63,303 nucleotides of DNA. Origin: Bacillota bacterium. GTDB taxonomy: Bacteria; Bacillota; Sulfobacillia; Sulfobacillales; Sulfobacillaceae. The notes under the pieces were generated by a model. That model searched no databases. It was not told where the DNA came from and saw only the letters and a list, made by a program, of their open reading frames with translations. The number at the start of each line of letters is the position of its first letter. The first letter of the stretch is position 1. The position numbers and the translations under genes were made by a program. The stretch is from NCBI GenBank assembly GCA_021799435.1, contig JAJZAN010000007.1, positions 1 through 63,303 of the forward strand. The letters run 5' to 3'. Below are positions 34,058 to 53,798 of the stretch, piece after piece.

Positions 34058-34061
34058 GCTT
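34035..34061. terminator. Hairpin ending the pentose-phosphate operon
   Basis: AAGCTCAGGAG and CTCCTGAGCTT form a perfect 11-bp stem with a 5-base loop. It overlaps the HAD stop codon and the last base pair of the convergent pilin-like gene. The T run is short on both sides, so it is probably a weak bidirectional terminator. Confidence 0.6.
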
Positions 34062-34383
34062 ATGTGGCGGCCGCCACAGTCTCTGGTTGGGCTCCTGCCC
34101 ATGTGGGCCAGAACCAGAGGTGTACAGAGGCCTCAACCGTAACTGACCACAGCTGACCCGTTGGGGAAAAGCTGACCACATGGACGCCCGACACAGCGCC
34201 GTCTTGGTCCACGAGACTCACAAGTTGGGCGGTGTTGGTATTGTTCGCCGCTTGCATGACGGCCACGGCGTTGTCCAGCGCGTCTTGCAGGTTTTGCTGT
34301 GCCGCCCAAACTTGTCCCAAAGCGGTCACCGCGCCGGCCATGACCAAGCCCACCAGCACCAACCCGAGTCCCATTAAACTCAC
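34060..34383 (-). CDS. Tad-type pilus-associated protein (TadG/pseudopilin-like)
   Basis: The 107-residue protein has one N-terminal hydrophobic helix (MGLGLVLVGLVMAGAVTALG) followed by a Gln/Asn-rich helix and a short beta region, the layout of Tad pseudopilins. The glutamate at position +5 of the prepilin motif is missing, so processing by prepilin peptidase is uncertain. GTG at 34383 (one base past the stop of the preceding gene) or ATG at 34374 could be the start. It is the last of three small genes in a Tad-like group and has no close family match that I can name. Confidence 0.5.
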   Translation of the reverse strand: MSLMGLGLVLVGLVMAGAVTALGQVWAAQQNLQDALDNAVAVMQAANNTNTAQLVSLVDQDGAVSGVHVVSFSPTGQLWSVTVEASVHLWFWPTWAGAQPETVAAAT

Positions 34384-34384
34384 G

Positions 34385-34792
34385 CTACCACATCGGAAAG
34401 TGATGATAGATAATCGTCGTGCCACCACCGCCACCCCCGCCGCCCGTGGTTACCTGGGGCGGCGGGCTCTGGCCCGGCGCCGGCAAGCTCGCCATGGAAC
34501 GCGAGGCTGTCACCGTGGCAGTCTTCCCAGTGTTCCAGAGCCTCACCGGAACCGCCACCGTCAGGGTGCGGACATTGCCGCTCCGCGACGCCGTAATGGA
34601 CGCTCCAGAGACCCCCTGGCTAGCCAAGACTCGGTTCACGTCTGCTTCCGCCCCGCGAGAACTTTGTCCCGCTGCCCACGTTTGAATCCCCTGTTGCGCG
34701 GCCTGACCGACCGCCACATGGTCCAGAAACAATCCACCGACCGTCGCCAAACCCAGGAACACGACCATCAGCACCGGCAGTACCAGCATCAT
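34385..34792 (-). CDS. TadE-like pilus protein
   Basis: The protein (135 residues from ATG 34792) has the TadE layout: a single hydrophobic helix (MMLVLPVLMVVFLGLATVGGLF) followed by VGQAAQQGIQTWAAG and a C-terminal domain ending in a poly-glycine stretch. Upstream and in frame lies GNAYIE, a class III prepilin-peptidase site with glycine before the cut and glutamate at +5. However, no ATG, GTG or TTG lies between that motif and a point well inside the preceding gene. The true start may be an ATA that overlaps the preceding TAG (ATAG), or the ATG given here. Family call is good, start is not. Confidence 0.6.
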   Translation of the reverse strand: MMLVLPVLMVVFLGLATVGGLFLDHVAVGQAAQQGIQTWAAGQSSRGAEADVNRVLASQGVSGASITASRSGNVRTLTVAVPVRLWNTGKTATVTASRSMASLPAPGQSPPPQVTTGGGGGGGGTTIIYHHFPMW

Positions 34793-34812: not shown

Positions 34813-35007
34813 CTATTGAATGGTGCTGAGGTTGTTGGTAATTTGCCCGAAGGCGGTCACCAAGGCGTTTCTGAGTGCTTCGATGGGCATAATCATCGCC
34901 AATACCACGACGATAATCCAGATTCCGTTCTCGATAAACACGTTGCCCTCTCGTTTGGCGAAACGCGCGACAAACCGTCCGCCCCACAGTCTTAGCCATA
35001 GTGTCAC
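34813..35007 (-). CDS. Flp/Fap-type type IVb pilin
   Basis: The 64-residue protein has a basic leader (LWGGRFVARFAKREG), a prepilin cleavage motif G-NVFIE with glutamate at +5, and a hydrophobic helix (NGIWIIVVVLAMIMPIEAL) followed by a short tail. This is the plan of Flp pilins that build Tad adhesion pili. GTG at 35007 has an excellent AGGAGGAG site. No assembly ATPase, peptidase or secretin genes lie nearby, so the machinery must be encoded elsewhere. Confidence 0.65.
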   Translation of the reverse strand: MTLWLRLWGGRFVARFAKREGNVFIENGIWIIVVVLAMIMPIEALRNALVTAFGQITNNLSTIQ

Positions 35008-35243
35008 AAAATCTCCTCCTGCCTCCGATTCCGCGCATCGGCGCGGTAGGCACAGGATAGCGAAAAAGTCGGGGAGGAATCGGGTCAATCCCTCGACACG
35101 ACTCCACCGCCCTGTGCGGGAAAGTGTGGGGTAGTCACCATTTCCCGTTGCGACCTAAAACGACAGCTTTACAGGGATCATGGCACCATTTTCCAAGGCC
35201 GGAATAGAATGGTTTGACCCTTACTAGAGAGGAGGTTTCTCGG
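35008..35243. other. Intergenic region between the pilin and holin-like genes
   Basis: This 236-base stretch separates two divergent genes and should hold both promoters. I see no near-consensus promoter, RNA gene or perfect hairpin. A TTGACC at 35071-35076 on the minus strand lacks a -10 at the right distance. Frames crossing it are not gene-like. Confidence 0.4.
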
Positions 35244-35549
35244 ATGAATGGCGTGGTCCCATACCTGGCTGCGGCATACGTGTCGCAAACGGTCTCGAAG
35301 GCCATCGCAAGCCTCATTCCCCTAAACTCATCACGATGGGCTGGCTTGCTCCGCGAGTGGTCCGCCACGGGATCTGGGGTGGCTATGGCTTTCGCGGCCC
35401 GCATGGATATCTTAGGCGACATCGGGCTGGACTTGGGCATCGAGCCTTTAGGCTATGTCATTACCGGGCTCATTTTGGGCCACGGAGTACAATACACGAT
35501 TAGCTTTCTCAGCAATGGCCCCAGAGGCGGTCAGACCCCCGCCGCGTGA
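35244..35549 (+). CDS. Small holin-like membrane-associated protein
   Basis: The 101-residue protein has a moderately hydrophobic first half (VVPYLAAAYVSQTVSKAIASLI) and a final hydrophobic segment with glycines (GYVITGLILGHGVQYTISFL). The last part resembles small holin-like proteins with a TGL-x-GRG motif found in spore formers, but the match is weak. The ATG at 35244 follows GAGGAGG. It lies 85 bases upstream of the lipoprotein gene on the same strand. Function unknown. Confidence 0.5.
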   Translation: MNGVVPYLAAAYVSQTVSKAIASLIPLNSSRWAGLLREWSATGSGVAMAFAARMDILGDIGLDLGIEPLGYVITGLILGHGVQYTISFLSNGPRGGQTPAA

Positions 35550-35556
35550 TTTCCAC

Positions 35557-35626
35557 ACTCCCTTCGTAAATAATTTCTGCCTACTCGGGGAAATTAAGGC
35601 CAAATCATCGCGATTACGAAGGGAGT
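35557..35626 (+). promoter_or_regulatory. Nested hairpin that sequesters the lipoprotein ribosome site
   Basis: An outer perfect 13-bp stem pairs ACTCCCTTCGTAA (35557-35569) with TTACGAAGGGAGT (35614-35626). Inside it a second perfect 7-bp stem pairs TAATTTC (35571-35577) with GAAATTA (35590-35596). The right outer arm contains AAGGGAG, the ribosome site of the lipoprotein gene that starts nine bases later. If transcribed, the folded form would hide that site. Confidence 0.65.
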
Positions 35627-35634
35627 CTCCTATC

Positions 35635-36654
35635 ATGCGGACATCCAAAGTCACCGCCGGAATGGCTCTGCTCTCAACGGCTGTCATACTCGCCGCCTGC
35701 GGAACCAATCCCGCGCCCTCACACGGGGGCAACACGACCACGGGCGCTTCGGGCACCAAGCACACCACCGGAGGCAATGCCAACAAAGCGGCCTTGGGCG
35801 GTGGAATCAAAAAAACAGCCGGATCCAATAACCCCGGGGGAACCACTGCCACTGCCAAAAACGGCAGCAACACCTCCAACGCGTCAACGACCAAAGCGGC
35901 AGGCACCCCTATTGCGCTTACAACTCTTCCTGCGATAACCGCCGTCGAGCCATTCAATCCGGCTTACAAGTCATACCACGCTGTCTCCTCGTTTGTTAAC
36001 GAAATGGGTTTTCACTGGATGACTCAGGCACCAGGCATTGTCTACATGACCAACAATCACAATCAAATCACGGGCGTGGAGGCTACTTTCCCGCAAAACC
36101 ACGGGAACTACCCATGGTACGACCCAGCCACGCCACCCAGCATTTTGAATGCCAGCCTGGCGTTCTACAGCGAACATCTGTACTTTGTTCCCCCGACAAG
36201 CATTACCCCTGGCATGTCGGCTGCCACCACCAGCGACCTCACGTCATGGACGTCATTCGTGACGGTCAATACCCGCTTGCAGGCCTATGTCAAAGAGCCC
36301 AGCACCTACAAAGGCTATACCATATACGGTCCTCCCCATGGATTGGGCATCAAGGTGCTGGTCAGCCCTGCGGGACTGGTGTCCGGGTTCATGGTGGGCG
36401 AACCGGCCGCTTGGGGATGGTCTCCAGTGTACGCTGAACCCCAGGGGCAACCGGTCGTGTCCCGGAATTTTGGCAAAGCCTACCTGAGCGTGTTCATGGT
36501 GGAACCAGCGACAGCTTCCTCCGCATCAGCCGCGGGAACCGCGTCCAACACGTCTTCGAACAATATCAGCAGCAACACAACCACTAAGGGCGGAAGCACC
36601 ACCGGCACCAAGGGGGGCGGCACCACTCGCACCAAGGGCGGAAACAAAAGCTAG
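35635..36654 (+). CDS. Lipoprotein with Thr/Gly/Asn-rich linkers
   Basis: The 339-residue protein has a lipoprotein signal with lipobox LAAC (Cys22), so it is anchored to the outer face of the membrane. Residues 23-95 and 300-339 are low-complexity Thr, Gly, Ser, Asn and Lys sequence. The central domain (about 100-295) includes AVSSFVNEMGFHWMTQAPG, NHNQITGVEATFPQN and GPPHGLGIKVLVSPAGLVSGFMVGEP, which I cannot assign to a family. The ATG at 35635 follows AAGGGAG, which lies in a long hairpin. Its stop overlaps the end of a small convergent membrane peptide gene. Confidence 0.8.
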   Translation: MRTSKVTAGMALLSTAVILAACGTNPAPSHGGNTTTGASGTKHTTGGNANKAALGGGIKKTAGSNNPGGTTATAKNGSNTSNASTTKAAGTPIALTTLPAITAVEPFNPAYKSYHAVSSFVNEMGFHWMTQAPGIVYMTNNHNQITGVEATFPQNHGNYPWYDPATPPSILNASLAFYSEHLYFVPPTSITPGMSAATTSDLTSWTSFVTVNTRLQAYVKEPSTYKGYTIYGPPHGLGIKVLVSPAGLVSGFMVGEPAAWGWSPVYAEPQGQPVVSRNFGKAYLSVFMVEPATASSASAAGTASNTSSNNISSNTTTKGGSTTGTKGGGTTRTKGGNKS

Positions 36655-36755
36655 CGAATAAAGTAGCCAATGACCGCCGCGGCCAGCACCAACCCGACCA
36701 CAATCATGGCCAGGTAGGGCGGACGCGGTGCGTCTTCTTTGCGATTCTGAGACAT
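36651..36755 (-). CDS. 34-residue single-pass membrane peptide
   Basis: The short frame encodes a charged N-terminus (SQNRKEDAPRPP) and one hydrophobic helix (YLAMIVVGLVLAAAVIGYF) ending in IR. The ATG at 36755 is preceded by GGGAGGA at ideal spacing, which is the main reason to accept it. Its stop codon overlaps the lipoprotein stop by four bases in convergent orientation. Function unknown; it may be a small membrane regulator or a subunit. Confidence 0.55.
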   Translation of the reverse strand: MSQNRKEDAPRPPYLAMIVVGLVLAAAVIGYFIR

Positions 36756-36842
36756 TCAGGTTCCTCCCAACAATTCGGCCTTCTCATCATACCGCGAAGC
36801 CGCGGCCACATGAAACTCAGGTTAACCGGCCATGCTAAACCA

Positions 36843-38039
36843 ATGCGACCGTTTTGGCACACCGGCACCTTTTGGGCTTTCGCCCTGGGCTTGTTTCTCA
36901 ATGCCTATGTTTATGGAATTGCTGCGGTGGCTCTGCTCCGGTCGGCTCTCTTCGGCTCATTGGCCACGCTAGGCATGGCATGGGCTCCGGCCGGGTTCCT
37001 CGTCGGCATCGTTGCCGGCGGGGTGGCGGCCGATCGTTATGGGCGACGGATTATTTTGGCATGGGGTCCCTTGGGCTACGTGACAGGATTGTTAGGTCTC
37101 TTGTGGGCGGGCGGCCCGTCGATGGTGCTGGCATCCTCGCTTGTCCTGCTAGTCACCGCCGGAGTGGAGAGCAACACAATTCTCACCTATTCGCAGGAGC
37201 TTTTGCCTCTCGCTACCCGACGGCAGGCCATGTACGCGGAACTAAACTTTGTCAATCTTGGAGGGCTGGCCCTGGCGGCGGTGGCACTGGCCGGCCACCG
37301 ATCCGCCCCCCCCTTGCACCACTTGCTCTCCCTGGTGCCAGTGGGCATGGCGCTCCTGTCATGGCCCCTGCGCACCCGCCTTTCCGAGTCGCGCTTGTGG
37401 CGGGAAAGCCGCCTTCGCACCCGTCAGACCTTGCCTCATGATTACAGGCTTAGGTTCTTAGTGGCCGCGGCCTTTTCATTTTCCAACACCGCCGGTTTCT
37501 CTCTCCTAGCTTATGCCTTCGGGCACGAGTTCCTGCCCGATCACTTTCACCATCTTCTATTCGTCTCCACATTAAGTGCGTTTCTGGCCGGACTTCTGGC
37601 CCGCTGGTTTGGCCGTCTTTCTCCCAAGTTCCTGCTGTTGCTCGGTTATGGGATGGCATCGCTCAGCGCGTTCCTGATTCTACAAATTCAAACACCGCAC
37701 CGCCCGGAGTTTTGGGCTGCATTGCTCGTCTTAAGTGCCTTCACCTCACTGAGCTACTTAGCCGAGGACACGTTCAAATCAGATCTTTGGCCATCGGCAG
37801 TCCGCGCTCGGGTAATCGCCGCCGTGCGAGCCATCGGCATGGCTGGATACCTGGGGTTGCTGTTATGGGAGCAACGCGCGCCGCTGTCTCACTTCGTGCC
37901 CGTGATGGTAGGCACCTGGGGACTGGGTTTCATCGCCGCCGTGGTATGGTGGCTCGCAGGCCGGCTCACGTTTCAGCATGACCGCCCGGTATCCGAGAAT
38001 CGGCTCACGCACCGTTCGCGACACAACAAGCTCCGCTGA
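36843..38039 (+). CDS. MFS transporter
   Basis: The 398-residue protein has about twelve hydrophobic segments. The major-facilitator motif between helices 2 and 3 is GGVAADRYGRRIILAWG, and a helix 4/5 segment TAGVESNTILTYSQELLP resembles the sugar-porter/metabolite-symporter branch. The substrate is unknown. I chose the ATG at 36843; a start at 36810 is possible, and neither has a strong ribosome site. The last 177 bases overlap the convergent methyltransferase gene, which is unusual. Confidence 0.85.
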   Translation: MRPFWHTGTFWAFALGLFLNAYVYGIAAVALLRSALFGSLATLGMAWAPAGFLVGIVAGGVAADRYGRRIILAWGPLGYVTGLLGLLWAGGPSMVLASSLVLLVTAGVESNTILTYSQELLPLATRRQAMYAELNFVNLGGLALAAVALAGHRSAPPLHHLLSLVPVGMALLSWPLRTRLSESRLWRESRLRTRQTLPHDYRLRFLVAAAFSFSNTAGFSLLAYAFGHEFLPDHFHHLLFVSTLSAFLAGLLARWFGRLSPKFLLLLGYGMASLSAFLILQIQTPHRPEFWAALLVLSAFTSLSYLAEDTFKSDLWPSAVRARVIAAVRAIGMAGYLGLLLWEQRAPLSHFVPVMVGTWGLGFIAAVVWWLAGRLTFQHDRPVSENRLTHRSRHNKLR

Positions 38040-52716: not shown

Positions 52717-53694
52717 TTAGTTCCATTCATTAGTGCTGAGATGCGGCTGCAGACTGCGGTTGAGACTCTCGGCCAGTACTTCAGCCATGTCGTCGATTAG
52801 GATGTCGATTTCTTTTGGCGTGACCATCAATTCACTGAATCGCGCTCCCAGCACCTCGTCGATGAGTCCTCGCTGCTCCGATGGAGCCATCTGCTTCAAG
52901 ATATCGTAAAATGCCATGTCATCGGCCAACTGGTTAGCTAACTGACGAATGGCTTCCTGGGCAATGCTGACTGACTGGACCACGGTACACACACCGATGG
53001 CGATGACCGGTACGCCCACGCTGGACTCGGTTAGTCCCTGCCGCCGGTTGCCCACGCCCGATCCCGGGTGAATCCCGGTGTCGGCAATCTGGACACTGCC
53101 AAGGAGACGGTCCAAATTGCGAGCCGCAAGCGCGTCAATGGCCACGACCAGATCGGGTTCCGCTTCGCGGGCGATTCCACGGATAATATCCAAGGTCTCA
53201 ATTCCGGTCGTTCCCAACACTCCGGGCGCCACGGCTGCCACGGGCCGCATTTTCTCCCTGATGTCCTCGGATACCACGGACCCTAGATGGCGCGTCACCA
53301 GCAGCCGTTCCACCACGCGCGGTCCCAGGGCGTCGGGAGTTGCGTTCCAATTGCCCAAACCGACCACCAGCACACTCTTGTGGGTATCTTGCGGAATGAG
53401 TTGCTTTAACTGATCCGTCAGTTGCTCCATGAGGTGGGTCTTCAAATCGGCGTCCCGATTTTTAAAGGTTGGAACATCCAGGGTCACGTAGTGGCCGCGG
53501 GGTTTCCCCATCAGCCGCTCGGCTGATTCTTCATAAATCTCCACCTCGGTCACAATCACGCCGCCGCTCTTGCTCTCCTTAACCCGAACCCCAGGAACTT
53601 CTTCCTTAGCGTCGCCGCGTACAATATCGCGCGCCTCGATCGCCATGTCGGTATACACCTGTATAGGAACAAATGTGGCCTTGTGCTCCGCCAA
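52717..53694 (-). CDS. gpr: Spore germination protease GPR
   Basis: The 325-residue aspartic-like protease degrades small acid-soluble spore proteins at germination. It shows YTDMAIEARDIV, which resembles the propeptide cleavage region, VIVTEVEIYEESAERLMGKPRGHYVTLDVP, SVLVVGLGNWNATPDALGPRVVERL, APGVLGTTGIET and AIDALAARNLDRLLGSVQIADTGIHPGSGVGN, all family hallmarks. It starts with TTG at 53694 behind GGCGGAGAG. It proves a sporulation pathway. Its substrate type is present at 14055. It should be expressed in the forespore, but I could not identify a sigma-F or sigma-G promoter with confidence. Confidence 0.97.
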   Translation of the reverse strand: MAEHKATFVPIQVYTDMAIEARDIVRGDAKEEVPGVRVKESKSGGVIVTEVEIYEESAERLMGKPRGHYVTLDVPTFKNRDADLKTHLMEQLTDQLKQLIPQDTHKSVLVVGLGNWNATPDALGPRVVERLLVTRHLGSVVSEDIREKMRPVAAVAPGVLGTTGIETLDIIRGIAREAEPDLVVAIDALAARNLDRLLGSVQIADTGIHPGSGVGNRRQGLTESSVGVPVIAIGVCTVVQSVSIAQEAIRQLANQLADDMAFYDILKQMAPSEQRGLIDEVLGARFSELMVTPKEIDILIDDMAEVLAESLNRSLQPHLSTNEWN

Positions 53695-53798
53695 TAGCTC
53701 TCCGCCTCCGGTCAGGTAGCCCTGTGATAACCGTAGGCTTGCCGCCCGTTTGGGGCTTTATGCACTGCCGCCCGCGCGCCAGCTTAGATGGCCTGGAT

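Follow-up and report, generated by a model that had tools for sequence, protein, structure and literature searches.

A nested hairpin lies between two co-oriented genes in a 63,303-nucleotide (nt) stretch of DNA from a member of the Sulfobacillaceae (assembly GCA_021799435.1, contig JAJZAN010000007.1; the whole stretch is hereafter called the window). Its right arm contains the Shine-Dalgarno (SD) sequence of a gene encoding an uncharacterised lipoprotein, and we consider that it probably serves as an insulator against transcriptional read-through from the gene upstream, with a forespore-type promoter in its loop. The features concerned are as follows.

35182 to 35210, forward strand: tentative candidate for a mother-cell-type promoter of the upstream gene, GGCACC-N-AATAGAAT (AC-N16-[CA]ATA)
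35244 to 35549, forward strand: upstream gene, encoding a 101-residue protein of an uncharacterised family; its stop lies 7 nt before the left arm and no terminator follows
35557 to 35569, forward strand: left (5′) arm of the 13-base-pair (bp) stem, complementary to the SD; as it precedes the predicted start, it is expected in read-through mRNA only
35568 to 35572, forward strand: predicted −35 element AAATA (RCATA in relatives), sigma-F-type, from conservation and from rank 1 in the window with the promoter matrix described below
35571 to 35577, forward strand: 5′ arm of the inner 7-bp stem, overlapping the end of the −35 region
35587 to 35596, forward strand: predicted −10 element GGGGAAATTA, from conservation and the matrix
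35590 to 35596, forward strand: 3′ arm of the inner stem, within the −10 element
35603, forward strand: predicted transcription start, within about 2 nt, placed from the −10 element; downstream of the left arm
35614 to 35626, forward strand: right (3′) arm of the 13-bp stem, including the SD
35619 to 35625, forward strand: SD (AAGGGAG) of the lipoprotein gene
35635 to 36654, forward strand: lipoprotein gene, 339 residues, with a lipobox at C22 and an uncharacterised conserved C-terminal domain

Both stems are present exactly as an earlier note on this DNA described them, with ACTCCCTTCGTAA pairing with TTACGAAGGGAGT over 13 bp and TAATTTC with GAAATTA over 7 bp. That note also judged the structure to exceed chance, which folding bears out: RNAfold gave −40.7 kcal/mol for 35540-35650 (z = −5.85) and none of 200 shuffles was as good. 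Of all perfect inverted repeats in the window with loops of ≤60 nt, the 13-bp stem is the longest, and in the complete read-through RNA most of its pairs have a predicted probability close to 1. An outer 9-bp stem over the start codon, which RNAfold proposed for the 111-nt piece, was discounted as its probability is 0 in the 505-nt read-through context.

The claim that this structure hides the ribosome site of the lipoprotein gene is likewise backed by folding predictions. Opening the SD is predicted to cost 18.9 kcal/mol in the long RNA but 6.6 kcal/mol in the RNA that would begin near 35603. Shuffling the sequence that precedes the predicted start lowered the cost in the long RNA to 6.7 ± 1.6 kcal/mol, with none of 200 shuffles as high as the native sequence. 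Moreover, among 54 SD candidates ranked across the window, that of the lipoprotein gene is the most closed (19.2 kcal/mol; next 12.4, mean 4.8). By these models an RNA helix sequesters the SD in the long RNA but not in the short one.

Within this region it is the loop that is conserved, and by its motif the loop is a promoter. The sigma-F consensus comprises a −35 of GYATA and a −10 of GGnnAnAHTR; against this the loop motif, AAATA-N14-GGGGAAATTA (35568-35596), has a fully matching −10, a spacer of 14 and an imperfect −35. The sigma-F spacer is 15, or 14 in sigG (PMC5942855), and sigma-F promoters of Clostridioides difficile are marked by a G upstream of the −10 (PMC3789822). The motif occurs at the equivalent place in all seven genus members that carry the lipoprotein gene and in two family members. 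The upstream regions of these orthologues have ACATAattttt-N-GGGGAAnTTA in common, at a similar distance from the SD, whether or not a hairpin is present. As the inner 7-bp stem overlaps these conserved elements, its palindromic appearance is in part that of the promoter itself.

A promoter matrix was trained on seven relatives, leaving out the window and its closest relative (G002). Over both strands of the window its top site was the loop site, scoring 21.6 against 15.9 for the runner-up, and its top five sites include one in the region upstream of gpr (53732-53764, reverse strand). In 3.2 kb around one gene for a small acid-soluble spore protein (SASP), the best matrix site falls just upstream of that gene; other SASP genes have CATACTA-like sigma-G −10 boxes instead. 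The source genome (3.97 Mb in 228 contigs) carries sporulation-type sigma genes, spoIIR, gpr, SASP genes and spoIVA, and is thus genetically equipped for making spores.

The position of the −10 element places the predicted start near 35603, downstream of the left arm, and the hairpin would therefore form only in mRNA that reads through from the upstream gene. The earlier note had set a transcription start downstream of 35570 against its own reading of the hairpin as a regulatory leader. Such a start is what the conserved promoter motif predicts.

We propose that the lipoprotein gene is transcribed from a sigma-F-like promoter of its own inside the hairpin loop. The resulting mRNA would begin near 35603, lack the left arm, leave the SD open and be translated. 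Polymerase arriving from the upstream gene, with no terminator in its path, would make a longer mRNA containing both arms, which would fold, bury the SD and yield no lipoprotein. Synthesis of the protein would thus be restricted to the times and places at which the gene's own promoter is active. No terminator-like site was found between the two genes in a scan of 34900-36900, and the hairpin itself is not followed by the U run after 35626 that an intrinsic terminator would have. Should the upstream gene prove to be a mother-cell gene, the hairpin would keep the lipoprotein out of the mother cell. A wider version of this proposal is possible but doubtful, in which mother-cell and forespore genes stand head to tail, the hairpin enforces the boundary between cell types at translation, and hairpins and terminators are interchangeable insulators across the relatives.

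The same architecture is found in two known systems, and by folding prediction the present hairpin would work as they do. In phage T4 gene e (lysozyme), the long early RNA is structured and silent, whilst late promoters near the ribosome site give an open RNA; the leaders of soc, 49 and I-TevI are further cases (PMC3014915). As is predicted here, a helix buries the SD in long upstream transcripts and mRNA from the gene's own promoter lacks the 5′ part of the structure; the e mRNA from late promoters is well translated. Gene e, however, belongs to a phage, has late T4 promoters and has been proven by experiment, whereas here the promoter is spore-type and the evidence is of sequence alone. In Bacillus subtilis a large hairpin was proposed for the RNA that reads through into sigG from spoIIG (PMC5942855). 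RNA made from the sigma-F/G promoter of sigG itself is unable to form that hairpin, and the promoter spacing is 14 nt in both cases. The genes are unrelated, sigG encoding a sigma factor and the present gene an uncharacterised lipoprotein, and the present case is known from its sequence only. If our proposal is correct, this would be a further promoter-in-loop insulator, in a lineage distant from Bacillus and involving unrelated genes, with expression depending on which promoter fired. It would also suggest that read-through insulation recurs where sporulation genes are closely packed, and it cautions against taking every buried ribosome site for a sensor.

Protein searches brought up relatives that include Sulfobacillus harzensis (G006), the nearest cultured one, and metagenome-assembled genomes of Sulfobacillus. 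The hairpin and the gene pair occur together in the source genome (G000), G002 and G006, in all of which the upstream stop lies 6 to 8 nt from the left arm. G002 is nearly identical in sequence and retains 12 pairs, with predicted SD opening costs of 16.2 kcal/mol in the long RNA versus 5.0 in its own RNA; for G006 the corresponding values are 9.2 and 3.1 kcal/mol. G006, which is about 13 bp longer between the arms, retains CTCCCTTCC/GGAAGGGAG (9 bp), followed by a mismatch and a bulge and then further pairs. Its pairs were counted on a hand alignment, MAFFT having misplaced its left arm. The earlier note had called for covariation in relatives, and this was found in part: of the outer 12 pairs in G006, two are changed on both sides and so compensated, but one is broken; four extra inner pairs add to these 12.

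A shuffle test found no significant SD burial in G003, G004, G005, G013 or G021. In G004 a terminator-like stem takes the place of the hairpin between the two genes. The upstream gene of G005 is found on a different contig, where an intrinsic terminator, GGCCAGCCT...AGGCTGGCCTTTCT, comes directly after it; the lipoprotein gene of this genome lacks a significant SD hairpin. G001 and G018, which have other codirectional neighbours, show weaker burial (reached by 2/200 and 5/200 shuffles, respectively). As judged from these sequences, the hairpin goes with the gene pair, and the link is good but not strict.

Several of these observations weigh against the insulator proposal. A clear hairpin is seen in only three genomes, two of them nearly identical, and the signal in G006 taken by itself is weak (equalled in 35/1000 shuffles in one test and 23/200 in another). 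In G004 the gene pair is present but the hairpin is not; the terminator-like stem in its intergenic region (AATCCCC-TCTCGCTA-GGGGATCTTTT) was read by eye. G022 and G031 bury the SD by a different pairing although the gene nearest upstream lies on the opposite strand, so that SD burial does not always go with gene order. On the promoter side, the −35 in the window (AAATA) is imperfect, the promoter region of the source genome's own sigG does not score highly with the matrix, and both the start and the sigma factor are inferred from a motif.

The pairing in G022 and G031 (loci L019 and L020) is itself of note. Just upstream of the lipoprotein orthologue, a sigma-G-like promoter (GTATA-N17-CATACTTTA) contains CCCTCACACAT, complementary to ATGTGGAGG in the SD region, which suggests a similar logic reached by different pairing.

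Other explanations of the hairpin were weighed against the insulator. Ribosomes finishing the upstream gene might melt the helix and so allow the lipoprotein to be made from a common mRNA at a fixed ratio, an idea favoured by the closeness of the upstream stop to the left arm in all three hairpin genomes. By standard footprints, however, a ribosome at the upstream stop would reach no further than the first two or three pairs, and the SD would still cost 12.8 kcal/mol to open without the first two bases of the arm; with a separate promoter motif in the loop as well, we regard such translational coupling as unlikely. Alternatively, the arms might act as DNA, binding a dimeric or looping regulator, as would suit perfect inverted repeats that bracket a promoter motif. 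Yet their spacing is not conserved, G006 being the longer there, its arms vary by compensating bases, and relatives have the promoter without the arms, all of which makes an operator improbable. There is a similarly small chance that the hairpin has no regulatory role, being either an inverted repeat that arose by chance or an element that stabilises the 3′ end of the upstream mRNA, the burial of the SD being incidental. A 13-bp repeat in 63 kb is by our own estimate only moderately rare, and just three genomes have the hairpin; against this, the arm falls exactly on the SD, which is the most closed of the 54 in the window, and the hairpin is retained in G006 with compensated pairs.

The earlier note had suggested a regulated leader, namely a thermosensor, a metabolite-sensing leader or a site for an antisense or protein regulator, and the sequestering of the SD by a stable nested structure speaks for one. 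ROSE and fourU thermometers also place the SD in a helix; theirs are imperfect helices which melt near growth temperature. The helix here is perfect and, unlike these, is predicted not to melt near growth temperature, SD opening in the 505-nt read-through RNA still costing 13.5 kcal/mol at 55°C (18.2 at 37°C). As for a metabolite sensor, no Rfam match was found in the region at the gathering score, and the conserved loop is a promoter motif rather than an aptamer, present also in relatives without the hairpin. No evidence was found for an antisense or protein regulator site. We therefore consider a regulated leader of any of these kinds very improbable.

The proteins on either side are uncharacterised, with no convincing match at the locus in Pfam, NCBIfam, PADLOC or PDB sequences. 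The lipoprotein gene was found in 23 of 61 genomes (itself counted), with relatives in the genus, family and order, and the lipobox Cys22 is invariant. The protein has no Pfam family and no PDB sequence relative, and its AlphaFold model, of middling confidence (mean predicted local distance difference test score, pLDDT, 69), gave no convincing fold match. If our proposal is correct, it is probably a sporulation protein.

Homologues of the upstream gene were found in 11 of 34 family genomes, and no convincing Pfam or NCBIfam family was found for its product. An invariant GHGVQY motif is present in this protein in five genus members. Five orthologues of the gene have GG[CA]AC-N16 to 19-[CA]ATA in common, and an AC in the −35 marks sigma-K promoters in C. 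difficile (PMC3789822). This promoter motif hints weakly that the upstream gene is a mother-cell gene, on which the main conclusion does not depend.

Lastly, some further observations were made in the window and the source genome. The known forespore gene gpr, which encodes the SASP protease (52747-53652, reverse strand), has a sigma-F-like promoter as recovered with the matrix built from the lipoprotein genes. A small gene with a Tad pilus-type (TadE/G-like) domain lies at 34060-34434 on the reverse strand, adjoining further pilin-like open reading frames. The pattern RYATA-N13 to 16-GGGGANNTTA has its only exact match in the genome on contig C94 (4080-4109, reverse strand; locus L037). Directly after this match come an SD and some 35 codons for a membrane mini-protein, possibly an unannotated spore mini-protein.
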